From assembly GCF_965363235.1 (NCBI RefSeq), contig NC_134840.1, positions 92,206,416 through 92,270,415 on the forward strand: a stretch of DNA of 64,000 nucleotides, written 5' to 3'. The stretch comes from Mytilus galloprovincialis (lineage: Eukaryota > Mollusca > Bivalvia > Mytilida > Mytilidae). The notes under the pieces were generated by a model that saw nothing but the letters and a program-made list of their open reading frames with translations, was not told the DNA's origin and searched no databases. Of this stretch, positions 14,201 to 48,865 are shown in pieces. The translations under genes and the position numbers were made by a program. The stretch's first letter is position 1, and each line of letters opens with the position of its first letter.

Positions 14201-17200
14201 AAAAGTCTCTCCTGCCTTTAAAGGTATACTGATTGTGACAACTTTTTCTCCTTCAATATAGAAATGAAATTGTTCCTTTGAAATGTGTTTTAATAACTAA
14301 AACACAATTTGCTTTATTCTGTCATCTTTTGTTGCATTTAAGTGTGTATGATTTTTGTTTAGAGCTAATTTCCTAGTGCTTGTAGAGTAAAACTTAGCTT
14401 AATCTGTTTGTTTACTTTGTATAAATGTCAACCAATCGTAAAAAAGATTGTCATCTTTTTAAACAATATATATAAGTATAGTTAAACCTGTATATATTAC
14501 ATTAAAGTTTGATTGGACATAATCCTGATTATAATTGTACAATTTTCAAACAGCGAGCAAGCCAACCAAAGTCTTACTCTACATGCATTAGGAAATTAGC
14601 TCTTACGGTGATGGGAGTCAGCTATTTTATAAAATTGCTTGATTTCTGATTTTGTTCTGTGAGGAGGATAAATCTGTCGAAAGTTTGTTTTATATTTTTG
14701 TGCTCAAATGTAATATGCCAGCTGTTATATGCTTCTTTTGTTTATTTATCACACTTGAAAATCTCACATAGCCTTGTGGTTGTTATCAAAACATCAATAA
14801 TTTGTACTAATCAAATAAAATTGATTGTAATATTTTACTTCTGATCATGGAAGTATTATATTGACAGGAACTCCAACAAACCGACTTCAAACGTTTATAG
14901 TGCGATGCCGCAAAATCGTTAAGTATCTGTTAATTAATTTGACATCTTTCAATTAGTTGTATCGATGCATGGGTTCAACGACGTTTTCGGGATACTCGTA
15001 ATTACGGAATTTACCGAAGTAACCGGATGTATACATAAATGTCAAGGATATGACATTTAACGACCATGCCAATATTTGGCAGTTGACAATTTATAGTTTT
15101 TAGGTTTTCTATGTTAATAAACTATCAACATTTACAAATATTTCACTAATCAATATGGACATGCACGATTTTGATGATGAAGAATTTGAAAAAATTATCG
15201 GAGAAGAAATTGAAGAGTTTTATTGCTTTTGTAAATCTGAAACATGTTCAATAGAAAAGATGATTCCGTGTGAAGGACCCGACTGCAAAACAAAATTTTT
15301 CCACCCAAAATTTTTTTCATATATGAAATGGATTTGCTAAAATATGTTTAAGGCAGTAAGGTGACCTATAGTTGAAAACTTCTGTTTCATTTGATCTCTG
15401 GTTGAGAGTAGTCTTATTGGCAATCATATCTTCTTATTTTTATATTGAATTATAATAAATGTCTTGTGTAAGGAAACAAATAGTTGTAATCTGCATGTAT
15501 AATTGAGGTTTACTGCTAACAAATCACTTGTTGAATTGTTTACTGAAAGTCCGGTGTCAAATGTTTCATTCATTTCAACAAAAAGAAAATTTTATAAATT
15601 TCCCAAAACAAATCCGTCAGACGCCAGAGCAATCTCGGACGAGGTTGAATTAAAAAAAAAAAAAGAAGGTGTACATGTAATCTGTGTTTTAACTTGATAC
15701 ATACTATATGGAGAGACAATCACGGGCGTATAATTATACACCTCTTAGTGCTTAAAACAATTTCTATAAATATGTTAAGTTACATTTTACGATCGAGAAA
15801 ACTATTAATATTTGTGTTACACTCGATTAAAATTTACAATCTTTAACTTAAAATTTGAGTTATCAGGCGCCATCAGGCACACTAAACGGACATCAAATTA
15901 TTTTCTGCAAACACTCTACTTCAGAGTCATGTAATCTGCATAATCCGATATTTCCCGATTTCCTAGTTCTAGTGATAAAAACATATTAGACAAAACTAAA
16001 AATAATCTTACTTTCTTTCCAAATACAATTATTTTTCTTTTGTCATTCTGTTAAATATGGACCGATTTTTAAGATTGTTTCAGCTGTAGTCTTTAATTAT
16101 TGAATAGAAACAGGTGTCGTTATTCATGTAGCGATTCGCAATTAGCCACGGGAGTTTCCGTGTTTATTTACATTGGTAGGTAGATTAGACCCTCGATAAC
16201 AGATCACGTGATAAGATCAGTTTCTGTAAACTACACACGCGAGGGCGGCATCGCAGATACCCCACAAAGGAGTTATCACATACTTGACATACTGAGTCGG
16301 AACCTTTTATTTTCCTAAAGAAATCAGTGGGGTGCGAATGTGCTAATTTTTTGTTGGAGTTCCTGTCAATATAATACTTCCATGTTCTGATATATATTAA
16401 ATAAAGTGATGACTTTTTCTTGATATAATCTAACTGTTGAGTAGAGACTGTTATATATACATTATAAAAAAAGTCTATTGTTTTGTAATGCCCCCTCCCC
16501 ATATAAAATTTGTTACAAGCTCCTTTGTTGAATCAAACACAAGCTCTGTTATAAGAAAAAAAATATTTTTGACTGCAGGAAATGATAAATCCTTACTTCC
16601 ATCTATTGGGTTCTTATATAAAAAACTGAAATGGTTAGATTTCCGAATTTATGGCTGGCTTTACTAAAGAACAATTGTCTTAATATGCAAATTTGCTTTG
16701 GTAATTGATGACCTATTATTATTACCATAAACAGAACATGTACTATGCATTATGGGAAAACAAAAAGATAATATGGCCTTGGTATATTCAGTTATTTTTT
16801 TCATGTATTTCTTTGTATATTAAAACATTGTTTTTGTACTCTTTATCTTTATAGCATCCAAAACCACACCAAGTGGAGCTGCTATGCATCCATCCAGTAA
16901 AGGTGAGAATATGAAAATAAGAAGATGTGGTATGAAATCCAATGAGAAAACTCTCAACCAGAGACCATTGACATAAAAATTAACAACTATTAGTCAGTGT
17001 ATGCAGTGTATCCCAAACTCTGTCTGAACGACAAAATATCAGACAAAAATTCATTCGGTCATATAGAATTTTTAGGATTTTTTGGTTGAACATATAGTAG
17101 AAAAGTTCAAATTTGTTTTTCGGTCAGACAAACCCTAAAACAGTTTGGCACAAACTGGTGTATGGTGAGCAAAACCATACAATATATTAAGCATGTTAAC

Positions 17201-20200
17201 TCTGTTTCTATATGTATTTACGAACAACAGAAGTTTATTGATCAGTTTGTTGTTAAGTAAATATTAAAAAACACTTTTAAGTTGTTTCGCCATTATGTAA
17301 AATGATACAGAATTCTTCATTATGTACTAGACAGTCTCTGTTACTGGATGATCTAGGTGGTAGATATCAATTAAAAGACTTTATCAGCCTATTAAAATTA
17401 AATCAAGAATATAATGAAAAGTTAGAAACTATTATGAGGTTAGTGCCAATATTAGTGAGAGATTTGTTTGTGGTAAAGTTATTCATATTGTATAATGCAA
17501 AGAACTTTTTTTTTTCAGAATTAAGATTGCTCAGACCTGAACCATCATTCCAAGAATTAAACAGATGTGCCACAAACCTTAAAACCATATTAAGTCGCAT
17601 TCCAATACAAATTGATGACCGAAAACAATTCCTAGAAACCATTAAGTAAGTCTTAGTGATAAAAAAATATTTTGAAGCTTGATCGTCTAATTAAAGAATG
17701 ATATGGGAGATAATTCAATTTGTCTCAAGGAGAACTTTGAAAAAAAGATTGCATAGCCAGGACTGATTGGTGACAGTGTTTTTATACTGCCCGGTAAAAC
17801 CTGATTGGTGACAGTGTTTTTATATTGCCCGGTAAAACTATATCAAATTAAATTCACTGAAAAAGACTCTTATAAAAATATCATGTAGAACTCTGTATGG
17901 AAAATAACTCCTTGATAAAAAATCTATTTAGTCTTTGTCTTCTGCAGAACTCCAATTTAGAGATTTGTTTACTTTGTATACCTCAAGCTATTTCATTCCA
18001 ATACACAGAACTCATTATTGTTCTTTTTTTTAAAGAACAAGGAAGAAAATTCTCTAAAAAGTGTTCTGTCTTTAAAAAAGATGTTTATCAATGACAGTTT
18101 ATAAAGATAAAGAATAAAGATGGTTATAAAGATGAGACATCTTAAATACTTTGATTTCTCTTCAAGATTATTATTTTGAAATGAAAAAAAAATAAAAATT
18201 GTACATATAATCTTACAATACTGTAAATTTCTTTTATGTTTTATTTTCCCAGAGAAATTGCTGGTTCCATAAAACATTTATTAGATGCCTTCAACAAAGT
18301 AATAGCTGAGATACCTGGTGGTGAGAGTGGAAGTAAACAGGTATAGTTTAACATAAAATTATTTGTCTTCTCAAAACATCTGGGGTTAAAGTCATAAAAC
18401 TTTGTTCAGTGCTCAAAGCACAAAAATCATGCTAGAAACATGAAATCTAGCATTTTGCTTGGTTGTTTTTGGAGTATGAGTACAAAAAACTGACTCGAAA
18501 GTTTAATGACTTCAAGGCCAGAGATGTAATGTTGAGCGACTCCATCTATGGTATCAGCAGTCCATATTATCATAAAAACTAATGAACTTATTTCTGACAA
18601 ATTTACATGTATTTTGTGTCATGTCTAGCAAAATGTAGTCACATTATCTAGGGAATAATGGGGCCTCGGTGGCCGAGTGGTCTAAGTAGTTACTTCTGTA
18701 ATCACTAGCCAGTCAACCCTGAGGTTGTGAGTTCAAACCCTGCTGGTGCGGGTGCACTCAACTCTAATCATAATTGACTAGGATTGTCAGTTTTTCTATC
18801 GAAGGTTGGTTGTTTTCTCTGGGCACTCCGGCTTCCTTCACCAATAAAAATTGGCTGCTAGGAAATAGCCTAAATGTGGAGCTTTAAAGTGGCTTTAAAA
18901 CACCAAAAATCATAATCAAATCTAGGGCATAATAAATAGTTTTATCAGAAGCATCAAAACAAAACCATGTAATATAATACCACATAAGATAACATCATAC
19001 ATGTATATAATCCAATTCTCTAAAAACATGTATTATATCAATCTGTTAAATTTACGTAAATGAACTGATTTTATTCAAATTCACTTATATTTTGTGTCAT
19101 GATTAGCATATAATACTAGTTTGTAAATAAAGAGACAGGTGTAATGGCATCAAAATGCAGAATTTTATTTTGGTCAATTGTTGTTCATTTAATTTCCAGT
19201 GGCAAATATTTGTATTAAACTAGAATAAAGAATTAACATGGCAGGTTCTGCATGGTTGAGAAAATTGGACGTCATTGTTATACAGACCGTGCGAGGGATG
19301 TAAATTCAGTCAAGGTTGCTAAACATTTCCATCATCATCAGCCATTGTAATATAGATATACGAAGATGTGGTATGAGTTCCAATGAGACAACTCTCCATC
19401 CAAATAACAATTTATAAAAGTAAACTATTAAAGGTCAATGAACATCCTTCAACACGGAGCCTTGGCTAACACTGAACAACAAGCTATAAAGGGCCCCAAA
19501 ATTACTAGTGTATAACCATTCAAACAGGAAAACCAACAGTCTAAACTATATAAAAAACAAGAAACGTGAAACACGTATAAATTACATAAACAACTACTGT
19601 ACATCAGATTCCTGACTTAAAACAGGTGCAAATAATACCCATAATATCCCTGACTCTCACATGCCCTTGATTTGGCGATACAACAAATCTTTTTCTGCTG
19701 CCAAAATCTGTGCTCAAGGATTTAAAATATTTGAAATTATAAAAGATATGATTGAAGTATCAAATGTACAGGAACTTTTGTTTATTATCTATAATTTACT
19801 TTCTGTTTTTAGATTTTAGAAGATAGGAAAAAAGAATTTGTAAGATATTCTAAGAAGTTCAGCAATATGCTAAAAGCCTTCTTCAGAGATGGCAGCCAGT
19901 AAGTTACATAGATAACATATATATATAAAATAATGAAATGTGGTATCAATGCCAATGAGATAACTATCCACCAGAGACAAGGACAAGGATATCAACAACT
20001 GTAGATCACAGTTGACTTTTAACATTTTCTTTTGCTTCTTTTTTCTTAGTTTCAGTTATATGTTTTGTTATACATTTTTAAATATTTCTTACAAAGCTTG
20101 TAGTTATTAAAAGTTACATTTAATTTGAATTGAATTTGAATCAAATGTAAATCGAATTCGCTAATCGCGTTCACCCACTCTTCCTTTTTAATTTGGATTG

Positions 20201-21682
20201 ATTTGAATTGGCTAATTTGCATAAACCAATTCGCATTAGAAATCTGTTTTTGTTGATACGAATTCAAAGTTAAAGTTGTTCGAACAGTAAAGCAAATTTA
20301 ATCGCATTGCAATTAGAATTAATGTTTGGACGTCAAATGTTTTCAATGTGGATTAAACTAATTCAAATTAGTTAATGGAATTATGTGTGAACGCAGCATA
20401 AGTAAAAATCAGAAAAGAGAGTACATTTTTTTCTCTTAAATATGTAGGAAGAAGAATTAAATCTAGTTATTATTTTTATGTTGCCTTCAACATCTGATAA
20501 GCTACCAGGACTAAGCAACAATCTACGAGAAGCAAAACAAATCATACCAGTTAATTTAATATTTAAGGAATAATTGTAATATTTTTTTCTGTCTATGAAG
20601 AAATAACATAAAAATGTGATGCACACATACATGTGATGGACTGTAAAACTCAGATCATGAGATTGGGAAATTTTGGTCTGGAGATAAGGACATTTATTGC
20701 CATAAATGTTGTCGTAAATGTAACCATGTGATGATTAAAATTGTCTTTTGAAGTGTTTTTTTCTTCAACTTTGAATCCAAATGTAATATGTTTATAGTAC
20801 CTTTGTACTATAAAATATTCTTTTTCTTTATTCAATCTAATATCCTTTTATTAGAGAACATTCTTGAATATCATGTCTTTTATATACTTTGATTCTCATT
20901 ATTCGATTTAACAATTGCTGCAAAATGAACAATTATTTTTTTTGTCTGTAGCAATTTTATACGACCACAAAATTTTTTTTGCGTCGTATAATGGTATCAT
21001 GTTGTTGTCGTCGTCTGCATCGTCCCAAGACGCCTTTAGTTTCGGGACAATAACTTTTGTTTTAGTGAATGGATCTCTATAAATTTTTACCAGAAGGTTT
21101 AATACCACTAAAGGAAGGTTGGGATTGATTTTAGGGGTTATGGTCCTAATAGTTTAGGAATAAGGGGCCAAAAAGGGGGGCCAAAATAAGCATTTTTGTA
21201 GTTTTCAAACAATAACTTGTGTTTAAGTGTAGGTTATTTTAAAGTGTGCACCACAATTCAATACTTAAAATAGACAGAAAAAATATTATAGTCATTCCTT
21301 ATAATTTAATTCTAATATCCATTTTAAGCCGGAATAAATCATGAAAAAGCATTGATGAGGTCTTGGTCACATGATAAAATTATGTCTATGAGCTGAGAAC
21401 CATTACACTGTTGGCCAATCAGAAGACGTGTTACATCCAAAATTGAATTATTAGTAAATATTTTTTATCAAACTTTGAATGAAGTAAAAATAATTATTTT
21501 GTGTTCTAATAATTCCAGAGATAATTTAGCTGTGTACAGAACTTTACATATTATATTGATAAATTATATATTCAAATTTTCTCTCTTGCAGAAGACAGAA
21601 TGTGTTTCTAAGTGCTAATTTCTTGATCTACCAGACGAATGTCATTTTAAGAACTGTGAAACAAGAAACAGAGAGAGAATGA
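11297..21682 (+). CDS. PDCD10: PDCD10/CCM3 copy 1 (programmed cell death 10)
   Basis: Coding exons: 11297-11374, 11830-11883, 12381-12507, 16855-16902, 17519-17645, 18253-18340, 19813-19898, 21592-21682; all introns are GT-AG and phases agree, giving 232 aa. The N-terminal helices (LEKKDKSSAQTLRASFSK) correspond to the dimerisation/GCKIII-kinase-binding region. Residues ~103-232 are the FAT-homology bundle, including RPEPSFQELN, KKEFVRYSKKFSNMLKAFF and NVFLSANFLIYQTNVILRT, very close to vertebrate PDCD10. The family is a cytoplasmic adaptor linking STK24/25/26 kinases, CCM2 and STRIPAK. The 48-nt fourth exon (ASKTTPSGAAMHPSSK) lies between the two domains and is missing from copy 2 and from human PDCD10 as I recall it; it is phase 1-1, so it can be skipped. 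A 5' UTR exon must precede 11266. Confidence 0.94.
11514..11765 (+). repeat. dispersed repeat family B in intron 1
   Basis: Carries the GAGTGCCAATGAGAC core, then CCTTCAACAGGGAGCCTTGG and GACTAGTGTAAAAC. The same order of blocks recurs at 19350-19640 and 35726-36005, with fragments at 16912-17010, 19918-20010, 31618-31765 and 63318-63410. Non-coding, abundant in mussels. Confidence 0.75.
12175..12345 (-). repeat. hammerhead-repeat family, decayed reverse copy
   Basis: On the minus strand the ribozyme-bearing family found at 54385-54600 can be followed here (GAGTCTTTTGTAGATGAAAC), but box I is interrupted and the cleavage-site side is altered, so self-cleavage is not expected. It lies in PDCD10 copy 1 intron 2, just upstream of exon 3. 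Confidence 0.6.
12925..13195 (-). repeat. dispersed repeat family B-related, reverse copy
   Basis: Contains TATAGCTGACTATGCGGT, AAGGTGACCTATAG and GTTGTCTCATTGGAAACCA, the reverse-strand start of the same group that gives 26375-26520 and 15350-15445. It lies in intron 3, between two related segments (around 12640-12900 and 13200-13400) that both contain GTGTGAAATAAGTACATT. Confidence 0.65.
13815..13997. mobile_element. MITE with GTGGATTCATT-type ends, diverged
   Basis: Left end CTGTTGATTCATTATT and right end ACTCCACAGTA are imperfect inverted copies. The interior GATACCAATTTTAATGCG matches the same family at 30050-30627. Inserted in PDCD10 copy 1 intron 3. Confidence 0.6.
14362..14602. mobile_element. 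241-bp MITE, TTA target duplication (PIF/Harbinger-like)
   Basis: The left end starts GAGCTAATTTCCTAGTGC and the right end finishes GCATTAGGAAATTAGCTC. They form an imperfect terminal inverted repeat of about 36 bp flanked on both sides by TTA. A 3-bp TWA duplication is characteristic of PIF/Harbinger, so that superfamily is inferred. No coding capacity. Confidence 0.75.
14846..16384. mobile_element. 1.54-kb DNA transposon with perfect 35-bp inverted ends
   Basis: The 35-bp end at 14846-14880 (starting CATGGAAGTATTATATTGAC) is repeated without mismatch in reverse complement at 16350-16384. The flanks read TTCTGAT on both sides, a 7-bp target duplication. The interior holds an ORF with a PHD-finger-like start (15155-15340), a second protein-like ORF (15503-15697) and a family B fragment at 15350-15445. 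No transposase domain was recognised, so it is probably non-autonomous. The CA...TG ends and 7-bp duplication are compatible with P-like elements, but that is a guess. The perfect ends suggest recent movement. It sits in PDCD10 copy 1 intron 3. Confidence 0.85.
15155..15340 (+). CDS. short ORF with a truncated PHD-finger-like segment
   Basis: 61 aa starting MDMHDFDDEEFEKIIGEE. An acidic lead is followed by FYCFCKSETCSIEKMIPCEG and PDCKTKFFHPKFF. The C-x-C, C-x4-C and His spacing follow the first half of a PHD finger (a ...MI.C....C...FFH pattern), but the later Cys residues are missing because the frame ends. It lies wholly inside the 14846-16384 transposon, so it is either a piece of that element's own protein or a captured host exon. 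Confidence 0.4.
   Translation: MDMHDFDDEEFEKIIGEEIEEFYCFCKSETCSIEKMIPCEGPDCKTKFFHPKFFSYMKWIC
17763..17838. repeat. 38-bp tandem duplication in intron 5
   Basis: Two nearly identical 38-bp copies (17763-17800, 17801-17838) starting CTGATTGGTGACAGTG and ending GCCCGGTAAAAC, with one difference. A simple local duplication. Confidence 0.85.
18661..18925 (+). mobile_element. tRNA-derived SINE in intron 6
   Basis: Opens with a tRNA-like head: A box TGGCCGAGTGG (18670-18680) and B box GAGTTCAAACC (18729-18739), inside a Leu/Ser-like leader GGCCTCGGTGGCCGAGTGG. The body contains CTGGGCACTCCGGCTTCC and the end is an A/T-rich tail (AAATCATAATCAAATC). The head lacks a foldable acceptor stem and is followed by ~160 bp of body, so it is a SINE and not a tRNA gene. 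Similar tRNA SINEs are widespread in molluscs; the family name is not assigned. Confidence 0.85.
19350..19640 (+). repeat. dispersed repeat family B, near-full copy in intron 6
   Basis: Includes GATGTGGTATGAGTTCCAAT, CAACACGGAGCCTTGGCTAA, ATTACTAGTGTATAACCATT and a TGTACATCAGATT end. A second short family B piece lies at 19918-20010 right after exon 7. Confidence 0.75.
20040..20400. repeat. AATT-rich quasi-periodic repeat in intron 7
   Basis: Dense AATT words (GAATTGAATTTGAATC, AATTCGCTAATCGCG, AACTAATTCAAATTAG) ending in GTGTGAACGCAGCATAA. The same terminal phrase occurs at 11745-11795 (GTGTGAACGAGGCATAA), which identifies a dispersed family. Non-coding. Confidence 0.55.
20940..21175 (+). 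repeat. dispersed repeat family E
   Basis: Begins with TACGACCACAAAATTTTTTT and contains GTCGTATAATGGTATCATG, GGATCTCTATAAATTTT and GGAATAAGGGGCC. The same blocks occur at 51300-51660. It lies in the last intron of PDCD10 copy 1. Confidence 0.65.
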
Positions 21683-26641: not shown

Positions 26642-28055
26642 TTATGCCCCACCTACGATAGTAGAGGGGCATTATGTTTTCTGGTCTGTGCGTCCGTTCG
26701 TTCGTTCGTTCGTCCGTCCGTCTGTTCGTTCGTCTGTTCGTTCGTCCGTCTGTCCCGCTTCAGGTTAAAGTTTTTGGTCAAGGTAGTTTTTGATGAAGTT
26801 GAAGTCCAATCAACTTGAAACTTAGTATACATGTGCCCTATGATATGATCTTTCTAATTTAAATGCCAAATTAGAGTTTTGACCCCAATTTTACGGTTCA
26901 CTGATAGAAAATGATAGTGCAAATTTCAGGTTAAAGTTTTTGGCTTCAGGTTAAAGTTTTTGGTCAAGGTAGTTTTTGATGAAGTTGAAGTCCAATCAAC
27001 TTGAAACTTAGTATACATGTGCCCTATGATATGATCTTTCTAATTTAAATGCCAAATTAGAGTTTTGACCCCAATTTTACGGTTCACTGAACATAGAAAA
27101 TGATAGTGCAAATTTCAGGTTAAAGTTTTTGGCTTCAGGTTAAAGTTTTTGGTCAAGGTAGTTTTTGATGAAGTTGAAGTCCAATCAACTTGAAACTTAG
27201 TATACATGTGCCCTATGATATGATCTTTCTAATTTAAATGCCAAATTAGAGTTTTGACCCCAATTTTACGGTTCACTGAACATAGAAAATGATAGTGCAA
27301 ATTTCAGGTTAAAGTTTTTGGTCAAGGTAGTTTTTGATGAAGTTGAAGTCCAATCAACTTGAAACTTAGTATACATGTGCCCTATGATATGATCTTTCTA
27401 ATTTAAATGCCAAATTAGAGTTTTGACCCCAATTTTACGGTTCACTGAACATAGAAAATGATAGTGCAAATTTCAGGTTAAAGTTTTTGGCTTCAGGTTA
27501 AAGTTTTTGGTCAAGGTAGTTTTTGATGAAGTTGAAGTCCAATCAACTTGAAACTTAGTATACATGTGCCCTATGATATGATCTTTCTAATTTAAATGCC
27601 AAATTAGAGTTTTGACCCCAATTTTACGGTTCACTGAACATAGAAAATGATAGTGCAAATTTCAGGTTAAAGTTTTTGGCTTCAGGTTAAAGTTTTTGGT
27701 CAAGGTAGTTTTTGATGAAGTTGAAGTCCAATCAACTTGAAACTTAGTATACATGTGCCCTATGATATGATCTTTCTAATTTAAATGCCAAATTAGAGTT
27801 TTGACCCCAATTTTACGGTTCACTGAACATAGAAAATGATAGTGCAAATTTCAGGTTAAAGTTTTTGGTCAAGGTAGTTTTTGATAAAGTAGAAGTCCAA
27901 TCAACTTGAAACTTAGTATACATGTTCCCTTTGATAAGATCATTCTAATTTTAATGCCAAATTAGAGAATTTATTCCAATTTCACAGTCCTTTAAACATA
28001 GAAAATGATAGTGTGAGTGGGGCATCCGTGTACTGTGGACACATTCTTGTTTCTT
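26642..28055 (+). repeat. dispersed family F element with recent 7-unit internal expansion
   Basis: The outer parts (TATGCCCCACCTACGATAG to GTGTACTGTGGACACATTC) match family F copies at 39528-39990, 41170-41475, 48283-48545 and 48646-48865. Inside, seven units start at 26759, 26945, 27134, 27303, 27492, 27681 and 27850. Spacing alternates between 169 and 186-189 bp because of an optional 20-bp duplication of TTCAGGTTAAAGTTTTTGGC. The first six units are almost identical and the last is diverged. A CGTTCGTTCGTCCGTCCG simple repeat precedes them. Confidence 0.9.
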
Positions 28056-36009: not shown

Positions 36010-37027
36010 ACACTTAACAGTTGAAGCTGATTGGTACACTGAGTGAATGGACAAATGTTGTCATCAATAGTTTTTTCTATGTTTATATGTTTCATGTGAA
36101 TACACATTTTTTTTTAAATATTATATTGCCCTTTTCAATTTATCATGTTTGTTGTTGAATTTAAACAAATTATAGTGTCAGTGATGAAAGACCCAGACTT
36201 GTCTGACAGTTTTATAATTGTTGGTAATTTTGTCTTTTTAAAAATATATTCAAATAGCACCATTTGATTTGAAACTGTACAGGTACAATGTACCACATTT
36301 CATATTTATTCAAATAATTCTGTCACCATGATGTTATAGGTGTCAGACCACCATTAAAAATCCCTATCTGTTCAACCAAATTTTGCAATTTTCAAAGCTT
36401 TCTAAATATTTTACCTTAAGTTTAACTTCAAGGAAACCAGGTATATCCTGAATTGTACATGTATCACCTTTCTACATGCTAATTTTCAACCAATGTTTAA
36501 AGTCTTATTAGAAATTTCTGATCTTGAAAACACAGGTACTACCAAAATAACTCCCGGTTTTCTGGAAATCTTAAATTAGTGTACTATGTAGCGCATTAAT
36601 CTTGAATTTTTAATGCAAACTCATAGACAAGTGAATTTTGACTCAAAATGGTCTAAATGTATCTTCCTTTCATCAAAAGTTTCATTTCTGCAAATTTGTT
36701 GGTTAGTTTAAGTAAACAATGACATCAAATGTAGGCCTACTTTCTCATACGTTCTAAATTGGAGGGAGTAATTTGTGGTCTTACACCTATAAAGCCCTGG
36801 AAAGAACACTAAGATTAGATTATCATTCTCATTCTCAATACATCTTCATTATCATTTGATTTTTTTAAGTTGAATAGGCTAAATATGTGATTTTTAAAGC
36901 AAATTATAGAATAAATTTGAAAATTCTTGAGATTATAGAAGTATTATATTAGAATTCTATTTCAGAAACAAATATCTAAGTGAATGATGAATACCATGTG
37001 ATGTGATTTTATAAGTCAGTTTTACAG
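36010..37027. other. 5' flank of PDCD10 copy 2
   Basis: AT-rich, no repeats recognised. An acceptor (TTTTACAG, ending at 37027) directly before the first coding exon means a non-coding exon lies upstream, possibly in this stretch; I could not place its donor. Confidence 0.4.
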
Positions 37028-37034
37028 AGGCATC

Positions 37035-40000
37035 ATGGGAGAAAGTAGCAAAGCACTATATGCCAGGATGTTGGTGGATGTTGTTATTGGCCCAGTCTTG
37101 GACAATGTAAGTATTGACAGTGAAACCTCCTGAAGCAGTCATGTTGTTATTGGCCCAGTCTTGGACAATGTAAGTATTGACAGTGAAACCTCCTGAAGCA
37201 GTCATGTTGTTATTGGCCCAGTCTTGGACAATGTAAGTATTGACAGTTAAACCTTCTGAAGAAGTCATGTTGTTATTGGCCCAGTCTTGGACAATGTAAG
37301 TATTGACAGTGAAACCTCCTGAAGCAGTCATGTTGTTATTGGCCCAGTCTTGGACAATGTAAATATTGACAGTGAAACCTTCTAAAGCAATCATGTTGTT
37401 ATTGGCCCAGTCTTGGACAATGTAAGTATTGACAGTGAAACCTCCTGAAGCAGTCATGTTGTTATTGGCCCAGTCTTGGACAATGTAAGTATTGACAGTG
37501 AAACCTCCTGAAGCAGTCATGTTGTTATTGGCCCAGTCTTGGACAATGTAAGTATTGACAGTGAAACCTCCTGAAGCAGTCATGTTGTTATTGGCCCAGT
37601 CTTGGACAATGTAAGTATTGACAGTTAAACCTCCTGAAGCAGTCATGTTGTTATTGGCCCAGTCTTGGACAATGTAAGTATTGACAGTTAAACCTTCTGA
37701 AGAAGTCATGTTGTTATTGGCCCAGTCTTGGACAATGTAAGTATTGACAGTGAAACCTTCTCAAGCAGTCATGTTGTTATTGGCCCAGTCTTGGACAATG
37801 TAAGTATTGACAGTGAAACCTCCTGAAGCAGTCATGTTGTTATTGGCCCAGTCTTGGTCAATGTAAGTATTGACAGTGAAACCTCCTGAAGCAGTCATGT
37901 TGTTATTGGCCCAGTCTTGGACAATGTAAGTATTGACAGTTAAATCTTCTGAAGCAGTCATGTTGTTATTGGCCCAGTCTTGGACAATGTAAGTATTGAC
38001 AGTTAAACCTTCTGAAACAGTCATGTTGTTATTGGCCCAGTCTTGGACAATGTAAGTATTGACAGTTAAACCCTCAGAAGCAGTCATTTTTTACAGGAAG
38101 TTGTGTAAAACGAAAGGGATCATATAGCAAACAGCATTATAATCTATTTTCAATAAGAATTGAATGTTTCTTTTTGTAAATTTATTGGGGTGTAAAAGCA
38201 TTGACCGAAGTACATTTTGTAAGAAGCGCGGAAGCGCTTCATTCTAAAAATGTGCGCACGGTCAACGCTTTTACAACCCTAAAAAGTTACAAAAAGAAAC
38301 ATTCAATACTTATAATTACATTTTTTAGCTATGATCATGAAAACACGAATTTTATATATTTTTTTATTTAATTCACCTGTGCACTTTATTGTTGGACCAC
38401 ATGTTATCATGAATGAAAAGTTGTATTGAGCAATGCAACTGCTTACAGAATATATGTGATGTGCAGTTTGCCAATCAGAATAACGTATTATAATGAAACA
38501 TACATCTAATGTAATTATTCTCCTATAAATGCAACATTTTACAGTGGTCTCTTGATGCAGATCAAAAACAGTAAAATTTGACAAAAGACCACTTTCGAGT
38601 TTGTCTTTCACTGGAAAAAACACGTCAATTATTATGGTTCATCAAGTGTCTTAGTTATTGTGCAGAATAAACTAGAAATAATGTTTGTCCTGTAGGTACT
38701 AATCACAATTCCCTAATGACAGCAGTGCCGGATGTCAATTATGAGAATTCAATTTGCCGAAATATGTTCAATATAGCTTTATAGTTTTCTTGCCAATTGC
38801 TCAACGTGGGAAGGGAAGTGACAATGCCATATACATGTAACACACTAAATGCATTGAACTTGAAAGTTGTCTATTGTACAAAATGTATAAGTACAAGTTA
38901 CCAACAGAAAAAAATGTAAACAGTTTGTACCTTATTATTACCATAATATGGGTGAACAACCTAGCCTGTGACAACCATATCAAAATATAGAACTAACGAT
39001 TTCATTATTTTCTTAATATGATTCCTTAAAAGACCGACATCATCTCTTAAAGTGTTTGCTTAAAGCTTGTAGTGATTGTTTTAGAATTTTTGTATGATAA
39101 AAAAAAAAACATATGTGTTCTTTTTGCAAAATCATATTTAATAATATATGACATAATGGTTTAATATTTTGTAGTTAGAAAAGAAAGACATATCTGCAGC
39201 CCATACATTGAGAGCAGCTTTCTCAAAGGTATTTGTATTAATTGAGAGCGTTCATTGTCATTAAAACAACTCTACTATATTGGACAGTTGATTAGTTATC
39301 TGCTGTTTAGGACGTTTGATAAATGTCCCATGGGTCAACAAGAAAATAATATATACTTTTTCTCATGAAATATACATGCTGAACATCCATTATTACAATA
39401 AGCTTAATAAAAATTTATTGGATGCAATCTTATTTGATAGTTAACACTTATAAGTTTCTGCTTAATGATAGGGGGACAAAAGGATTCCTGTTTGTAATTT
39501 TGTATGTTATGCCCTTTGATGACTTAAACAAGAATGTGTCCAAAGTACACGGATGCCCCACTCGCACTATCCTTTTCCATGTTCCATGGACCGTGAAATT
39601 AGGTAATTATCTAATTTGGCATTAAAATTAGAAAGATCATATCATAAGCAACAAGTGTACTAAGTTTCAAGTTGATTGGACTTCAGCTTCATCAAAAACT
39701 ACCTTGACCAAAAACTTTAACCTGAAACTCCCACTTTCATTTTCTATGTTCAGTGGACCGTGAAATTGGGGTCAAAAGTCTAATTTGGCTTAAAAATTAG
39801 AAAGATCATCTCATAAGCAACAAGTGTACTAAGTTTCAAGTTGATTGGACTTCAGCTTCATCAAAAACTACCTTGACCAAAAACTTTAACCTGGACGGAC
39901 GAACGGAACCACAGACGGACAGACGGACGAACGGAGCCACAGACCAGAAAACAAAATGCCCCTCTACTATTGTAGGTGGGGCATAAAAATTGAAATGATC

Positions 40001-43000
40001 ACTCTTTATGAACTCAACCTATTTCACACTTTTTGGATTTGAATGAAATTCGTATGCAAGTATTTACTTAAATAAATGTTCATTATTATATTTCAGGCTG
40101 ACCACACACTGCCAGGGTTTGTATATGATACAATTAGAGGTATGCTGAGGAAAGCTGAAATGACAGATAAAGTAGATATGTGTGAAACATTACTGAGACT
40201 AGGAGGCACTCAAGATAGTGATGGTATGATTTCAAATTTCAAATTGTATTTACTCTAAAAAGAGGCTGAAAATGGATTTTTTTATAGCTAATTAAAATCA
40301 TTTTAAATCAAATGGTCTGCAACTTTTTCATGATAACTGATGAGACATAGTCTGATTTCCCAAGTTATTTCATGTTCAAGCAAGCTAACTTCAGCTGAAG
40401 TTAAACAAATTATAAATATGAATATACTCACATTTGATCTTTGTTACGATTATTTTCTGAAAGTACTCTTGTTAAACTAGATGCTTTGTCAGTGTATACA
40501 TACAAAATGTATCATATTACTAGGACAATTTTGTATAAATTATATACCAATAAGAATTAGAATTAGAAAAAGTATTTTAAGTAAATTAATCTTTGAAATC
40601 TGAATATTTGCAGAACTTAAATTATATCGCCCAGAAAAGACATTTCAAGACTTAAGCAGATGTGCTTCTGGTTTGAAAATGATTCTTGGTAGGATACCAG
40701 ATCAAATTTATGACAGAAAACAGTTTTTAGAAACAATAAAGTAAGTACATCTTGTATTTGCAGATAAATAATTATAGTCTAAGTGACACTAACTTTTTAT
40801 AACGACTTAATGTTGATGGTTTTGAAAATTGATATGGTCTACTTTATTTGGATCAGAATTTGGTACTTTTATTGTTGAAATGCAGTGGCGGATCCAGCCA
40901 TTTTAAAAAAGGGGGGTTCCCAACCCAGAGTAAAGGGGGGGTTCCAACTATATGCTCCCATTCAAATGCATTGATCGGCCAAAAAAAAGGGGGGTTCCAA
41001 CCCCCGGAACTCCCTCCTGGATCTGCCACTGAGATGTTATCTCTGCTTATATCATAAATTATTAAATATATCATAATTAAAATCAGTTACAATTCCTACT
41101 CTTTAACCATATCTATTCTTATTGTCTAAACAAGACTTTTAGAGTAATAGAATGTATGTGTTGTTATTATGCCTCATTTACGGGCATTATGTTTTCTGGT
41201 CTGTTCGTCAGTTCGTTCGTCCTTTCTTCTGTCCCACTTCAGGTTAGTGTGTTTGGTCCTTCAGGTTTAAAGTTTTTGGTCAAGGGTTTTTGATGAAGTT
41301 GAAGTCCAATTAACTTATAACTTAGTACACAGGTTCCCTATGATATGGTTTTTCTTATTATAAATTTTCAATGCCACATTAGATTTTTTACCCCAATTTC
41401 ATGGTCCACTGGACATAGAAATTATGATAGTGGGAGTGGGGTATCCTAGTACTATGGACACATTCTTGTTCTCTAATACATCTACATCTGATGTGTGACA
41501 AAACTTTTCAAATAAATTAACAGGCTGTGTCCTGTGATATAATGATGTGTCAGTGGCGGATCTAGAAATTTTCATAAGTGGGGGCCCACTAACTATCTAA
41601 GAGGGTCATGCTTCAGTGATTCTCTATATAATCAAATAAATTTTTCTTAGAAAAAGGGGGGTGTAGACCCCCTCCCTAAATTTGTCTCTATGTGTTATGG
41701 TCAGTAGATTATTAAACCTTTTGTAATATTTTACAGAGAAATAGCTAGTTCAATCAAACTGTTACTAGATGCCTTCAACAAAGTGATAGAAGATGTTCCT
41801 TCTAGTGACAGTGGGAGTAAACAGGTATTATGATAGAGCTTACTAACAAGTTAACCTATGTTATATAAATTTTATAATTACACCCTGTGGGTGTATACTG
41901 TTTTACCTCTGTATGTCCGTCCTTCCATCCCATGATTATCTTTTGTCACATCTTTGTTAGGAAGTAAATCATAAGGATTCTGAAATGTTCTATCAGGATT
42001 TATATAAGTTAGCTATACTGTGTGATGTGTTTTCAGATTCATCACTCAACAACTTCCTGGGTGGGCAGGGGTTATTATCAGATAGCAGTCTCTTGCAGTT
42101 CCACTTGTTTTACCTATCTTAAACCAGGATGAGATGTTCTGTTGATGATATTTTTGGAACCTTTATTATAATTGATCTGGTATTCAAAGCTATGAAATAG
42201 ATTTTTGGCAGTTTTGATATAATTTATTGTCCTCAACTTTAGAAAGCTGCCTTTAGTTTTCTTTACGCTATAAAGTTTTGTCATCATTGAAAAATACCAT
42301 GGATTAAATAATGTCACTGGTTAAAACTGTTTATTCATACATATGATACTTAAAGACGGTTTTCCCAGTTACGGGTAAAGATTTATCTCCTCGAATATAA
42401 TTTTTTTTCATTTTGATAACATAATTTCTAATTTCTTATTGTTCTTGTGAATATAAATGAAAAACAAATTTCAAACATTGAAAATTGTATATAAAGATTA
42501 ATTTGTTTGTAGATCTTAGAAGACAGGAAAAAAGAATTTGTAAGATATTCGAAGAAATTTAGTAACATGTTGAAGGAGTTTTTCAGAGATAGCAGTCAGT
42601 AAGTACATTTATATTAATCAGAAACCATTTTTTTCTAGCATTTTGTCTACTCTAATTTCAAGTTTGTAGGTATTTGAGCATATTACAAAGGCACCTATAG
42701 CATTGTTTATAAGCCAGTATTCTTCATGGTAAAATCAATATAAATTCAAGTCCCCCTGAATTATTTCTTAACTCTCTTTTACAGGACTTGTACTCGAAAA
42801 TATCAGGCAATGATGTCAGATATCAGTGCAGCAAGGTCACATGCTCAAGTCTATTCTCATTAATTAATCAATGAAATGCACACAACTTCATTCAAACAAT
42901 CAAACAACAGTCTAATCATTTTGTATGTGCAAAAGTAGTTTTTCTTTTCATTTTTCTTCATATTCTCAAACAATATGATATTCTTGCTGATAAAAAACAA

Positions 43001-45867
43001 ATATGTCATTAATCTATATGTATTAAATTACCAAATGTCATACATAACTGCCAAAATTATGATAAAAAAAAACCTACATATATATATATAGACGAGTTGT
43101 ATATACATTATGTACACAGCCATGTATCACCATCATTGATGGCGATCCGATGGATACATCTGTTGTAGAGTTGTCACTGACTCAGACGTACTTATATATA
43201 TATATATATATATACAACTCGTCTAAACATCAACCCAACAATGTTAGATCTGTAAATTTGCTTTCGCAAATTTTTGGTTCTTCCCTCGCCGGGATTCGAA
43301 CCCATGCTACTGTGATATCGTGGCACCAAATCGCCTGCACTGCAGCCGTCCCGCTAGACCACACGACCACCTGGGCTCTACAATAATAGAGCTTTCGCTG
43401 GCCGTGTGTTACCTTTCCTCGTCAGTTTTAATCTAGCGGCGTACTACAGTACATGATATATAAGGCATGAAGATGTTATTGTTATAGATCAGCTAAATTA
43501 TCTATAGTAAAGGATCCTACAAATTAATGTAATATACAGTCACAGAAAATTATTATATTTATATTCGCAAATTTACAGATCTAACATTGTTGGGTTGATG
43601 TTTAGACGAGTTGTATATACATTATGTACACAGCCATGTATCACCATCATTGATGACGATCCGATGGATACATCTGTTGTAGAGTTGTCACTGACTCAGA
43701 CATACTTATAAATATAATTATTTATCCGGAGTTGTAATCCGGAGTTGTAATAATGAACACAGAAGATTATAAATTAGAGGTAGAAAAGGAATTAGATAAC
43801 AACGATACGTACAAAGCAATAGATAAGGATCTAACACAGAAAAATGAAAATAAAGTAAAAAAACTCATAGAAAATTTATGTAAAAGAGAAATAATAGACA
43901 AAGACATGAAAAAATATCTCTTACCGAAAGGAACATGTCCCGGAAAGGTACAAGCCAATCCGAAATTACACAAAAAAAATCACCCAGTTAGAACAATTAT
44001 TAATGGGCGGAACCATCCCACAGAAAAAATCGCGGAAATAGTCGAAAACGAGCTTTCGGAGAATGTTCGAAACTTGCCCACCTATATCAAAGACACAACA
44101 GATTTTTTAAACAAATTAAATGCAATACAACAGCCTTTACCAGACAACGCAATAATGTTTTGTTTAGATGTAACTAAATTATATCCAAGCGTACCAAGAA
44201 AAGAAGCACGAGAAGCATGCAAATCAGCACTAGAAAATCAAACTAACACATCAATCCCAACTGAAGATGTTCTTAAAATGATGGATTTAGTCATTGAAAA
44301 CAATAATTTTAGCTTCAACGGAAAACACTTTTTACAAACCGAAGGAACAGCTATTGGTTCCCATCTAGGCATGAATTATGCTTGCACCTACCTCGGACAA
44401 TGGGAAGAAAATTTATTTCAAAACAGCAATTTACAACCATTTTCATATTGGAGATATGTTGATGACATCTGGGGAATATGGGAACATGGTTTAGATAAAC
44501 TAAAAGAATTTCACGAAATGTCAAACAGTTTGCATCCGCGAATTAAAACAGAAATGCGTTACTCAACTGAAAAAATTGAATTCCTTGATGTGTTTGTACA
44601 CATAGAAAACGGACAACTTAAAACAGATCTTTATACGAAATCAACAGATAACCAGTACTTACATGTGTCGTCGAGCCATCCAAACTCCGTAAAAAATGCT
44701 ATACCGTATGGACTCGGTATACGTGTCAAAAGAATTTGCTCAACAGAAGAAAATTACAAAACAAGAAGAGAAGAAATAAAAACGCACCTAAGAAAACGTG
44801 GATACAATAACTCGTCAACTGAAGTTCAATTGAAAAAAGTCGACAATTTAAACCGAGAAGATCTATTACAGTACAAACCGAAGAAAGAAAACAACAGGGT
44901 ACCTTTAGTAATTACTTTTTCCAAAGCGCTTCCAAATGTACATTCAATTCTTAGAAAAAATCTTAAAATTCTCCATCAATCTGAAAGACTAAAGAAAATA
45001 TTCTCCGATTCGCCTATCGTGGCATTTAAACGTGATAACAACATAAAAGACATCTTAGTGCACAAAAAGCATAATTTACTATTTTATAAACAAACTAATG
45101 GATGTGGACCATGTGGTAAACATTGTGCATTATGCTCACATATAAATGAAACCAAGGTATTTTGTGACAACACCGGCAAAGAATATACCATTCAGGGACA
45201 AATAAATTGTAAAACCGTAGGCGTAGTATATGCAATTAATTGTACAAAATGTGAAAAAGTTATATATGTAGGACAAACGGGTGATACACTATATCAACAA
45301 ATGCTATTGAACTTTTCAAAAATAAGAACACAGAAAACAGAAGATCCAGTAGCCAACCATTTCATTCAGAACAATCATTCAATGACAAATTTAAAAGTTA
45401 CCGCCATAGAAAGAGTATTTGGGACAGAAACTTACAGAAAAACCAAAGAAGCCTTTTGGATAAAAAAATTAAAAACTTTAGAACCTGAAGGACTCAACAC
45501 AATGTATGAACGATAATAAAAATATTTATATTAAAAAAGCGAAAAACGCGGCAAATGAACGTCATAGAAGTTATTATAACGTAATGTATCCAAGCAATGT
45601 AATTGTTGTTTCAATGTTGTCATTTATTCCAATGAAGAAGGCCGTAATGGCCGAAACGTATGGGAATTTGTGTTATAGTTTTTATTATATATATATATAA
45701 AAGTGTGGTGAGGGGTATGGTCTATGGTGGACATTTAATGTTGTTTGAAGCTGTTTTATTAATAATTCAATTTTGCTTTCAGGAAACAGAATGTTTTCCT
45801 GAGTGCCAACTTCCTTATATACCAGACCAACGTTATTCTACGAACAGTTAAACAAGAATGTTGTTGA
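37035..45867 (+). CDS. PDCD10: PDCD10/CCM3 copy 2
   Basis: Coding exons: 37035-37106, 39175-39228, 40097-40223, 40614-40740, 41737-41824, 42513-42598, 45783-45867, giving 212 aa, the length of human PDCD10. Phases are identical to copy 1 without its extra 48-nt exon. It starts MGESSKALYARMLVDVVIGP, with LEKKDISAAHTLRAAFSK in the dimerisation/kinase-binding part, then YRPEKTFQDLS, KKEFVRYSKKFSNMLKEFF and NVFLSANFLIYQTNVILRT in the FAT-homology part. The C-terminus differs from copy 1 (KQECC versus KQETERE). Protein divergence from copy 1 is substantial across all exons, so the duplication is old. Two features are odd: the exon 1 donor is embedded in a 16-unit minisatellite, and the last intron (42599-45782) holds a Penelope-like element. 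Confidence 0.93.
37080..38087. repeat. 63-bp minisatellite, 16 units, carrying the exon 1 splice donor
   Basis: Units start every 63 bp exactly from 37080 to 38025 with few substitutions. Each has 27 nt of exon 1 coding sequence (GTTGTTATTGGCCCAGTCTT plus GGACAAT), then the donor GTAAGT and 30 nt of intron. Fifteen units keep GTAAGT; one (unit 5) has GTAAAT. Only the first unit continues the reading frame from the start codon; reading through it meets TGA at 37131-37133. The long minus-strand ORFs here exist only because 63 is a multiple of three. Confidence 0.97.
38155..38313. repeat. near-perfect palindromic element in intron 1
   Basis: The left arm (AATTGAATGTTTCTTTTTGT, then GGGGTGTAAAAGCATTGACCG) mirrors the right arm (CGGTCAACGCTTTTACA, then ACAAAAAGAAACATTCAAT). 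The centre is GAAGCGCGGAAGCGCTTC, itself palindromic. Arms are about 50 bp with a few mismatches, so it is a fold-back MITE. Confidence 0.85.
38578..38885. mobile_element. MITE family C in intron 1 of PDCD10 copy 2
   Basis: Left AAAAGACCACTTTCGAGT and right TGAAAGTTGTCTATTGT form inverted ends. The interior matches 21985-22375 but lacks part of it. Confidence 0.7.
39528..39990 (-). repeat. family F element, reverse copy with two internal units
   Basis: Starts AACAAGAATGTGTCCAAAGT and ends TGTAGGTGGGGCATAAAAA. Two ~180-bp units contain CCTTGACCAAAAACTTTAACC. It lies in intron 2 of PDCD10 copy 2. Confidence 0.8.
40883..41031. mobile_element. 149-bp MITE with CAGTGGCGGATCCAG ends
   Basis: CAGTGGCGGATCCAG at the left pairs with CTGGATCTGCCACTG at the right with one mismatch. 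The interior is made of G-run/C-run words (AAAGGGGGGTTCC). Related ends occur at about 41550, 60263 and 63635 in this window. No clear target duplication. Confidence 0.7.
41170..41475 (+). repeat. family F element, degraded copy
   Basis: GGGCATTATGTTTTCTGGTC at the start and GTACTATGGACACATTCTTG at the end, with one internal unit. Located in intron 4 of PDCD10 copy 2. Confidence 0.7.
42785..42863 (+). other. possible alternative last exon of PDCD10 copy 2
   Basis: After a strong pyrimidine tract and TTTTACAG, the sequence continues the exon 6 phase. The split codon CA|G is followed by 25 codons starting TCTRKYQAMMSDISAARSHA and a TAA at 42861-42863. Using it would replace the last FAT-homology helix. 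No transcript evidence is available, so this is a reading of splice signals and phase only. Confidence 0.25.
43281..43375 (-). repeat. tRNA-like (SINE head) module inside the Penelope 5' region
   Basis: On the minus strand the A box is TGGTCTAGCGG (43351-43361) and the B box GGTTCGAATCC (43292-43302), with GGGTTCGAATCCCGGC as a T-arm. The spacing between boxes is too long for a normal tRNA and no acceptor stem closes, so it is a tRNA-derived head and not a tRNA gene. The sequence after the B box runs into CAAATTTACAGATCTAACAT, which is repeated in inverse orientation at 43567-43616. Confidence 0.7.
43753..45516 (+). CDS. Penelope-like polyprotein: reverse transcriptase plus GIY-YIG endonuclease
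   Basis: 587 aa, uninterrupted. RT motifs in order: VRTIINGRNHPTEKIAE, MFCLDVTKLYPSVPRKEA (first catalytic Asp), EGTAIGSHLGMNYACTYL, catalytic YVDD at 235-238, then FLDVFVHIENGQLKTDLYTK and a YLHVSSSHP motif typical of Penelope RTs. A Cys-rich linker (GCGPCGKHCALC) is followed by the GIY-YIG nuclease, with GVVY at 490-493 and YVG at 505-507. The product would copy element RNA at nicked chromosomal sites. The N-terminal ~100-200 residues seen in full-length relatives are missing, and the ATG used may be an internal Met, so activity is uncertain. The open frame suggests a young insertion. Confidence 0.92.
   Translation: MNTEDYKLEVEKELDNNDTYKAIDKDLTQKNENKVKKLIENLCKREIIDKDMKKYLLPKGTCPGKVQANPKLHKKNHPVRTIINGRNHPTEKIAEIVENELSENVRNLPTYIKDTTDFLNKLNAIQQPLPDNAIMFCLDVTKLYPSVPRKEAREACKSALENQTNTSIPTEDVLKMMDLVIENNNFSFNGKHFLQTEGTAIGSHLGMNYACTYLGQWEENLFQNSNLQPFSYWRYVDDIWGIWEHGLDKLKEFHEMSNSLHPRIKTEMRYSTEKIEFLDVFVHIENGQLKTDLYTKSTDNQYLHVSSSHPNSVKNAIPYGLGIRVKRICSTEENYKTRREEIKTHLRKRGYNNSSTEVQLKKVDNLNREDLLQYKPKKENNRVPLVITFSKALPNVHSILRKNLKILHQSERLKKIFSDSPIVAFKRDNNIKDILVHKKHNLLFYKQTNGCGPCGKHCALCSHINETKVFCDNTGKEYTIQGQINCKTVGVVYAINCTKCEKVIYVGQTGDTLYQQMLLNFSKIRTQKTEDPVANHFIQNNHSMTNLKVTAIERVFGTETYRKTKEAFWIKKLKTLEPEGLNTMYER
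45627..45665 (+). ncRNA. hammerhead-like fold at the Penelope 3' end
   Basis: Stem I TTCCA/TGGGA, box I ATGAAGA (consensus CUGANGA except its first base), stem II GGCC-GTAAT-GGCC, GAAA box II, and a very short stem III before the GTA cleavage site. Penelope-like elements are known to carry such minimal hammerheads. The one box I mismatch makes activity doubtful. Confidence 0.6.
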
Positions 45868-48185
45868 TACTAAATATTGGTTAGTCAAAAAACTAAAGTA
45901 CAAAAAAATATGCAGAAAAATTTAAAAACCAAAAACTTTTGAGGACGTTTTTGTTTGTTCGTACACTTGTTAGTGATGACACCTTAAATTGAGTATGACC
46001 AAACATGTTTCAGAACATTTCTCAATCATTTTTTTGTTGTTGTCTTTATTATGTTGGACAAACTAGCATTGTTAATTATTTTATTTCAGCATTATGTACC
46101 TACTACTATGTAATACTTCAGGCTGTTTTAAAAGTGTTCAAACTATATTAGGGGTCTGACCATAAATTTCTTGTGAATCAAAGTTGCTGAATTTATGACT
46201 GGGTTCTATTTTTAGGAAAGTTTTCTGATCACTTATTATGTAGTCATAATTTTTTTGTAACATCTAAAAGACAGAGATGGGTGTTCTATATTTTTTTCTA
46301 AAGATAGAAATAATAGTGAGATTCAGCAGATTCCTTCAAGGACTACATCTATAAGAAAAGAACTCTTAAATTTTGGAGTATGATATAAATATATATATTC
46401 TGTTATTTCAATATCAAAATATTTTACACTACCATCTGATAAGTGTTGTGAGTGTAATATTTCTATCAAGAACCAGTAAAATAATTGTAATTTTACTGTA
46501 AACATAGTGTATGGTCTGATGTTTGATGGGAAGAAACACTTTTATATGGGGTTGTGTTTCAATTGTTGATTAATGCAATATATCTTTTTGTTATTATTTG
46601 TGTAATATGATAAAATACAACCTTTTGGTTTATTCTAGTTCATGAATGTGTTTTAACATGTAAGGGTAAGTGATGTTAACAGTGGTAAAAATGCAGAAAC
46701 GCAATGACATTGTGAAAAATTACTGGTACTATGTATATACCAATATACATATTTTAAATAGTCTATATATACTTAATTTGCAATATGAAACATTAATACA
46801 TGTACAAATGTATATGTATATAATTCTTGTTGACTCATATGCTGATGTTTTTTTCTTCATTATTTTCATTTATAAGTAATTGATAAAATTATGGGCAATA
46901 TGAAGATTACATTGTACTTTCAGTAAAAGATATGCTGAACTAAGATTATTTTTTAGGTAAAGATTGCATGAAATGCAATCAAAACCTTATGGGACTGACT
47001 TAATATCTAAATGTTCCAAGGCTTATCACTAGCTTTTTTGATACACAAAATATAGTGCATTGATCATAACATTCTATACATCTTATCCATGAACATTTCT
47101 AGAAATTTATCAATGTAATATATGTTCAGTTATTCGAAGCACAAAATGATGTTACACCTGTCAAGAAAATTACATAACTTTTGCAAGGTGCAGGAATCTA
47201 ATATCTGTTCTAAACATAGAATGATGTCATTGTTAAAATCATCTTAAAAAATTTGGAGTTGCCTAGTATTACTGTTAAATCAACAACAACCAATGCAATG
47301 TTAAATTTTACTTCACACTGATAAATTGAAGCAATCTTTACCGTCTAGTGGCTACAAGCACTTTAAGTTAATCTTTTTGGCAAAAGCTTTAAATGACTTT
47401 GAAAACATGGAAATCAGTAGCATGGTCAATGAATTAACTATTTACAAAATCTTATTACATTTGTACTATCTTTCTATGGTAAGCAGAGGAGGAATTATTG
47501 CTGTTGAACAATATTTAAAAACATCATTTACTGTCATTTTTTTTAATAAGAACAAAAGACTAATGAGTTAATTAGTTGAAAAGTTATCTTTGCTATCATT
47601 ATTTTCTATTATTGGTACATCGAATATTTTGTATTAAGTTATTGTTATTTTCATTTTTATGCTTTCTCAGTATAAACCATTCACATGTTAACCAGTTCGT
47701 TGTCTTGCAACTTGTCAGTTAAATTTGAATTTTATCAAAAGATATTGAAAACTTTTTAGGTGTTGAATTCAATATTCTTATAACAAGGTGGCTCACTGTA
47801 ACCAGCAATTTAGTTTCAACAATTTTCAATTTTTTTAAAACTTGAATACAATTGATAGTTTATACCACATTCAGAAGAGATTATTTTTTTAATTTCATAA
47901 TCTTAATTTATGAATACTAGTACATGGTTGTAATGTTTTTGTTTAAATCAAATTTTTATCATTTCTGTTCACAATGTTTTTTTGTTTTTTTTTATTTATG
48001 CCTTAAATCAAAGACAATAGGTGTTCACAATTTTTTTTTTTGGAACAACAAACTTTTATATTATATTGCAATATAGTCTTTTATAATTTATATTAAATAA
48101 TTTATATATTATGAGTATATGTTTGTGCATTGTACTGAAAATTGATACATTAGATTTAAAATAAATTGAAATATTTTTTGAAATG
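45868..48185 (+). other. probable long 3' UTR of PDCD10 copy 2
   Basis: 2.3 kb free of the dispersed repeats that crowd the rest of the window. I found no AATAAA closer than 48160-48165 (TTTAAAATAAATTG), which is followed by TG-rich sequence. Repeat sequence resumes at 48283. This fits a long 3' UTR, but ORF-free unique intergenic DNA is also possible. Confidence 0.45.
48160..48165 (+). terminator. candidate poly(A) signal of PDCD10 copy 2
   Basis: AATAAA with a GAAATGTGTCTTTT-type downstream region. Assigned by position only. Confidence 0.45.
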
Positions 48186-48282
48186 TGTCTTTTACTGTCT
48201 CCACCTGCCATAATACTACCTCAAATCACCAACATCTCACTTTCTGTTACCATCCTGCCAAGATGTTTTCTGTATACTTTTT

Positions 48283-48865
48283 ATGCCCCAATTAAGGGGC
48301 ATTATGTTTTTCAGACTGTGCGTTCATTCATCTGACCATCTGTCTGTCCTGCTTCAGGTTTATTTTTTTGATCAAGATAGTTTTTGATGAAGTTGAAGTC
48401 TTGGAAGTAAGTACACATGTTCCCTATAGTATGATCTTTCTAGTTTAAAGCCAAATTAGAGTTTTGATCCCAATTTCATGGTCCACTGAACAAATAGAAT
48501 TATAGTGTGAGTGGGGCATCCATGTTCTATGGACACATTCTTGTTATTACTTCTTTCTGTAGTCACCTCTCTAAATCTGTCATCCATCATCTTTTTTTTT
48601 GTTTGCAAAATCAATATTCTGACTCCAACTTTCATGAGTACTACAACAAGAATGTGTCCTCAGTACACGAATGCCCCACTCGCACTATCATTTTCTATGT
48701 TCAGTGGACCGTAAAATTGGGGTAAAAACTCTAATTTGGCATTATAATTAGAAAGATCATATCATAGGGAACAGGTGTACTAAGTTTGAAGTCGATTGGA
48801 CTTCAACTTCATCAAAAACTACCTTGTCCAAAAACTTTTAACCTGAAGCAGGACAGACGGAGGAA
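48283..48865. repeat. two family F elements in opposite orientation
   Basis: A forward copy (48283-48545, GCCCCAATTAAGGGGCATTA to CTATGGACACATTC) is followed after ~100 bp by a reverse copy (48646-48865, AACAAGAATGTGTCCTCAGT onward). The reverse copy breaks off at the edge of the LTR fossil. Confidence 0.75.

Follow-up and report, generated by a model that had tools for sequence, protein, structure and literature searches.

When the end of a coding exon and the splice donor that follows it are repeated in tandem, which of the donors would be used, what would become of transcripts spliced at the others, and how did such an array arise? These questions are raised by a locus of the mussel Mytilus galloprovincialis, examined here within a window (the whole stretch of DNA analysed, 64,000 nt long; C3:92206416-92270415), in which a minisatellite crosses the junction between coding exon 1 and intron 1 of the downstream one of two PDCD10 genes.

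The array and its host gene

On the plus strand, Tandem Repeats Finder (TRF) reports a 63-bp unit in 16.0 copies at 37078-38087, with 96% matches and 0% indels, and both the printed units and the genome search described below agree with this; sixteen units of exactly 63 bp fill 37078-38085 in tandem, followed by 2 nt more. In the TRF register, each unit comprises the last 29 nt of coding exon 1 (37078-37106), the 8-nt donor and 26 nt more of the intron, while the register itself is free and the exon part counts 27 nt with the start chosen in an earlier note on this DNA. Fifteen of the 16 units have GTAAGTAT as donor, while unit 5 has GTAAATAT (at 37359). The observation of that note, sixteen 63-bp units at an exon/intron junction with the donor repeated in every unit and variant in one, is thus confirmed. 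The printed units show 11 variable columns with 12 distinct changes and represent 9 sequence types in non-periodic order, where units 1, 2, 4, 6, 7, 8 and 12 are identical to one another, units 3 and 10 form a second identical set, and the remaining seven are each unique.

In intron gain by tandem duplication of the AGGT type, a repeat carrying AGGT lets each new copy form an intron. AGGT is absent throughout 37078-38087, as the scan of the whole array indicates, and the array does not belong to this type (background on intron gain: PMC2809761). Micro-introns inside the array, 52 nt long and running from a donor to the CCCAG of the next unit, were also rejected, as they would be very short, lack AGGT and show no evident pyrimidine tract. 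On the minus strand, open frames of 217 and 108 aa cover the array (window 37056-38087). They are rejected as coding and regarded as a by-product of the 63-bp period being divisible by three: in 4258 of 5000 shuffled 63-mers, one or more of the six frames can be read through the unit without a stop, and the unit-to-unit differences alter the antisense protein.

The window encodes two complete PDCD10 (PDCD10/CCM3) genes in tandem, 15,352 nt apart and both on the plus strand, which were located by comparing the plus-strand frames of window positions 1-36000 with those of 36500-44000, followed by a search for the last exons. Such a pair of full genes is notable in itself. Copy 1 (11297-21682) has 7 coding exons and encodes 216 aa, and copy 2 (37035-45867), likewise with 7 coding exons, encodes 212 aa. 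The coding exons of copy 2 lie at 37035-37106 (from the ATG to donor 1), 39175-39228, 40097-40223, 40614-40740, 41737-41824, 42513-42598 and, with the stop, 45783-45867. All six introns of both copies are bounded by GT-AG, intron positions are conserved, and exons 2-6 are equal in length between the copies. Exon 1 ends in GACAAT in copy 2 and in GAAAGT in copy 1, in either case followed by the donor GTAAGTAT; intron 1 of copy 1 (455 nt) begins with this donor and carries no array, while intron 1 of copy 2 (37107-39174) extends over 2068 nt. An AG at 37026-37027 stands just before the ATG of copy 2 and a similar TTTTACAG precedes that of copy 1, which suggests that a 5'UTR exon lies upstream and that coding exon 1 is internal, 79 nt in length.

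The two proteins share 73% identity (155/212). Pairwise dN/dS is 0.09 by NG86 (0.188/2.01) and 0.16 by LWL85 (0.163/1.02), with dS near saturation; given these low values and the intact structure, both copies look constrained, although the ratio, being pairwise and without outgroup, is not specific to copy 2. Copy 2 matches PDCD10_N (PF20929, 67.6 bits) and PDC10_C (PF06840, 103.8 bits), both over the cut-off, and thus contains the N-terminal dimerisation and the C-terminal domains of PDCD10/CCM3; it also matches solved PDCD10/CCM3 chains in the PDB (E 1.5e-45), and copy 1 is about equal to it in Pfam and PDB chain matches. Pseudogene status of copy 2 was rejected on the intact frame, the splice sites and the pairwise dN/dS, and the array host is an apparently intact PDCD10 paralogue. 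The exon structure and domain matches bear out the earlier assignment of the unit to the exon 1/intron 1 junction of such a paralogue.

Other, weaker PDCD10 family matches occur in the genome. In a tblastn comparison of nine such loci with both copies, eight gave no match at E<=1. Locus L010 (G000:C1:43305532-43305672) contains a weak PDC10_C-like match (19.5 bits, below the cut-off; tblastn E 0.005, 27% over 37 aa), and similar weak matches are also present at C2; matches of this kind may be due to chance or represent a distant relative. The last intron of copy 2 contains an uninterrupted 587-aa ORF (window 43753-45516, plus strand), which has no Pfam match at E<=1 and one weak NCBIfam match below the cut-off, and which is reminiscent of a reverse transcriptase of the Penelope type, its end being GIY-YIG-like. 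In intron 1, about 65 nt past the array, an inverted repeat (window 38153-38313) with 55-nt arms, 89% complementary and 51 nt apart, resembles a small terminal-inverted-repeat or hairpin element. Apparently related, diverged repeats of the GTTAAAGTTTTTGG / CTATGATATGATC type lie at window positions 26757-28013, 39560-39893, 41081-41517 and 48165-48559, in the form of a 189-bp array, a 169-bp duplicate and single pieces, and probably constitute one repeat family.

Donor choice and its consequences

Donor 1 (GTAAGTAT, 37107-37114) is the sole donor compatible with the full protein, and donors 2-16 follow on the same strand every 63 bp (37170-38059), 14 of them with GTAAGTAT. Paired with the 5' end of U1, 15 of the 16 unit donors have a duplex energy of -7.3 kcal/mol, and that of unit 5 has -1.6 kcal/mol. 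These 15 are the best U1 matches of the 180 GT sites located between 37028 and 39174, the best site outside the array reaches -6.6 kcal/mol (at 38952), and the donor of unit 5 ranks 87th. The claim of up to sixteen nearly identical donors therefore stands for fifteen identical and strong ones, but not for unit 5, which is weakened. On the plus strand of the window 72 of 3691 GT sites, including the 15 array donors, are at least as strong, and three of the eleven other donors in both PDCD10 genes, all in copy 1, are stronger; the array donors are thus good, not extreme. All 100 shuffled versions of 37028-37350 fold more stably than the actual RNA (z +2.6), so the donor sites within this stretch should be accessible, and structured RNA was rejected for the stretch that the fold covered.

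As the period equals 21 codons, a downstream donor does not shift the reading frame, and the first in-frame stop past exon 1, the TGA at 37131-37133, is included with any donor after the first, which is why all later donors fail and yield a product of 24 + 8 = 32 residues. Translation bears out the earlier prediction on this point, including the truncated length. The distance from the stop to the new exon junction is 36 nt for donor 2 and 99 nt for donor 3, with five further coding-exon junctions downstream of that junction. Nonsense-mediated decay follows, in the usual mammalian rule, from junctions downstream of the stop; given these five junctions, mRNAs from donors 2-16 should qualify for decay, the rule being mammalian and the animal a mussel.

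If the AG ending at 37027 is the acceptor, the exon would grow from 142 nt with donor 2 to 1024 nt with donor 16, and exon definition should thus favour the first few donors. On the other hand, U1 bound to several strong duplicated donors reportedly favours the donor nearest the 3' splice site, according to Eperon and colleagues. Such an intron-proximal preference would make most transcripts unproductive, an outcome not easily reconciled with the gene being intact.

Origin of the array and variation between its units

With the 63-bp unit as query, a DNA search of the 1.38-Gb, 331-contig genome returns 16 matches at E<=10, all within the array; the array is thus found at one place, and a dispersed-repeat or mobile origin of the unit was rejected, these counts being lower bounds. 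Minisatellites of its class (period 25-200, at least 5 copies, at most 3% indels) are common in the genome: TRF on twenty evenly picked 10-kb stretches and the window (264 kb together) finds seven, the PDCD10 copy 2 array included, six of them in the twenty stretches. Large minisatellites elsewhere are found at L041:4885-10000, L033:6474-7955 and L030:4518-6102 (periods 76, 62 and 166, respectively).

The array is probably a young minisatellite that grew by slippage across the exon-intron junction; downstream donors would be used wastefully to some extent, with a small, roughly neutral effect. First, 63 bp across the junction of exon 1 and intron 1 in the downstream paralogue would have been duplicated, with ATGTT in the exon and ATTTT in the intron as the probable short matches. 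The unit start ATGTT resembles the ATTTT directly after the array, and a near-repeat (GGATGTTGGT GGATGTTGTT) lies in the exon just upstream of the array; both are plausible seeds of the first duplication. Growth to 16 units may then have proceeded by slippage or unequal exchange. Since copy 1 shares the donor GTAAGTAT but lacks the array, this growth would most simply postdate the split of the two copies, the alternative being loss from copy 1. Donor 1 would remain the productive site, alone giving the 212-aa protein, while the later donors, 14 of 15 of which match U1 equally well, probably capture a minority of transcripts; with the TGA at codon 33, these would probably be subject to decay. 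Like the human CBS exon 13/intron 13 VNTR, the array probably affects output little and in a roughly neutral manner.

Plain neutrality of the array leaves unexplained that differences between units are scarce in the exon/donor part. Only one of the 12 distinct changes falls in the 29-nt exon part (5.5 expected, P 0.007) and two in exon plus 8-nt donor (37 of 63 positions; 7.0 expected, P 0.004), while the other 10 lie in the 26 nt of intron. A circular scan without preset borders places 10 changes in a 17-nt window, a concentration reached in 31 of 20000 simulations with a window length picked after seeing the data. Pairwise diversity in the exon/donor part amounts to 0.007, against 0.082 over the remainder of the unit. 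The same script gives P 0.0025 for the PDCD10 copy 2 array and 0.26, 0.63, 0.93, 0.99, 0.99 and 1.0 for six control arrays, which lack clustering and form a small sample, with change counts inflated in two of them by 1-2% indels.

This pattern would fit a template-unit effect or selection on the donors, of which we prefer the former. The exon/donor part may look conserved because new units are usually copied from unit 1, the exon of which is under protein and splice constraint while its intron half varies freely, and take over this state, a tentative reading compatible with the neutral growth proposed above. It is in line with the identity of unit 1 to six other units and with the location of all three shared variants (columns 45, 52 and 59) in the intron half, but singleton changes, which arise after copying, are also skewed (2 of 9 in the 37-nt part, P 0.03).

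Any regulatory role of the array is putative. The earlier note proposed the array as a copy-number dial, where a higher unit number would raise the share of unproductive splicing and lower the amount of copy 2 protein, and where individuals would differ in a functionally relevant way. Its reading of donor 1 as the sole donor able to give the protein, with a stop ahead of every later donor, holds and speaks for such a dial; seven identical units of 16 suggest recent turnover, and VNTR length in human CBS is reported, in a review statement, to lower enzyme activity. A large dS with low dN/dS, however, points to both genes having been constrained over a long divergence, and we consider such a dial unlikely.

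Selection of the extra donors as a multi-U1 platform near the gene start, by which transcription would be boosted or premature polyadenylation in the long first intron averted, appears improbable. The clustering of changes, its lack in the six controls and the low exon/donor diversity would agree with it, as would the one AATAAA past the array (at 38666). Nevertheless, there are only twelve changes, the singletons alone are less strongly skewed, the controls are few and in part inflated by indels, the donor of unit 5 is already weakened, and intron 1 of copy 1 has two polyadenylation hexamers and no array. Similarly improbable is the form of this proposal in which the promoter-proximal multi-U1 array leaves splicing at donor 1 and unit number sets output via U1 dose, not splice-site choice. 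A single search of the open-licence literature on U1 telescripting yielded no paper with the word minisatellite. An assembly artefact, with the array shorter or absent in the animal, is hardly credible, as nine unit types in non-periodic order and the single place found argue against assembly stutter, as do the exact period and 1-kb total length. A young, roughly neutral, slippage-grown minisatellite thus stays the preferred explanation.

Known junction-spanning repeats

A narrow search of the open-licence literature on PDCD10 and mussel found no report of the array. It may serve as a natural test bed for spliceosome choice among many identical tandem donors, where alleles differing only in unit number, if they exist, would form a dose series, the array-free sister gene about 15 kb upstream is a control, and the scarcity of changes in the exon/donor part might reveal whether surplus donors are tolerated, eliminated or retained.

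Two human genes provide the closest precedents. The CBS VNTR was reportedly first described by Lievers et al. in 2001, and the IFI6 minisatellite with multiple splice donor sites, the unit of which is 12 bp, is said to have been reported by Turri et al. in 1995. The CBS polymorphism c.1444_1467+7(16_21) is a VNTR with units invariably of 31 bp that carry substitutions (PMC2630376) and is listed as exon 13-intron 13 (PMC1395315); more units at this boundary were found to lower CBS activity in a paper that terms the repeat non-coding sequence at the boundary (PMC5188458). As read from the notation, the CBS unit also spans an exon-intron junction, with exon end and donor start, inside a working gene, and is present in 16-21 units with single substitutions within units. 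The PDCD10 copy 2 array likewise has a tandem unit with an exon end and a 5' splice site in an intact host gene, but its unit measures 63 bp (29 exon + 34 intron) against 31 bp (24 exon + 7 intron) in CBS, and it lies at the first coding exon, not at exon 13. Polymorphism and an activity effect are reported for CBS, whereas the mussel array is known here from one assembly.

In IFI6 (6-16, G1P3), splicing also takes place at two downstream repeat units, and the three mRNA species that arise encode different isoforms (PMC4526556). In PDCD10 copy 2, as judged from its sequence, the repeat units would likewise supply alternative donors of one exon; the mRNAs from the downstream donors of IFI6 encode isoforms, whereas every later donor of PDCD10 copy 2 runs into the TGA at 37131-37133 and keeps no open reading frame. 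Tandem repeats at exon-intron boundaries with altered splicing are also described in recent human segmental-duplication paralogues (PMC2812944), and share minisatellite growth at such boundaries in duplicated paralogues; those cases are reported to involve novel introns and retained repeats, while the PDCD10 copy 2 array lies within an existing intron. The DDX3Y/MSY2 promoter minisatellite and the repeats within the first intron of an earthworm metallothionein are unlike it in anatomy.

The earlier view of a splice-donor array as unusual thus holds for PDCD10 and not for the category, since arrays of repeated splice donors are already known from human CBS and IFI6. The present case, new in gene and phylum, adds to these two and differs from the known ones in its longer unit, its position at the first coding exon and the unproductive outcome of every alternative donor.
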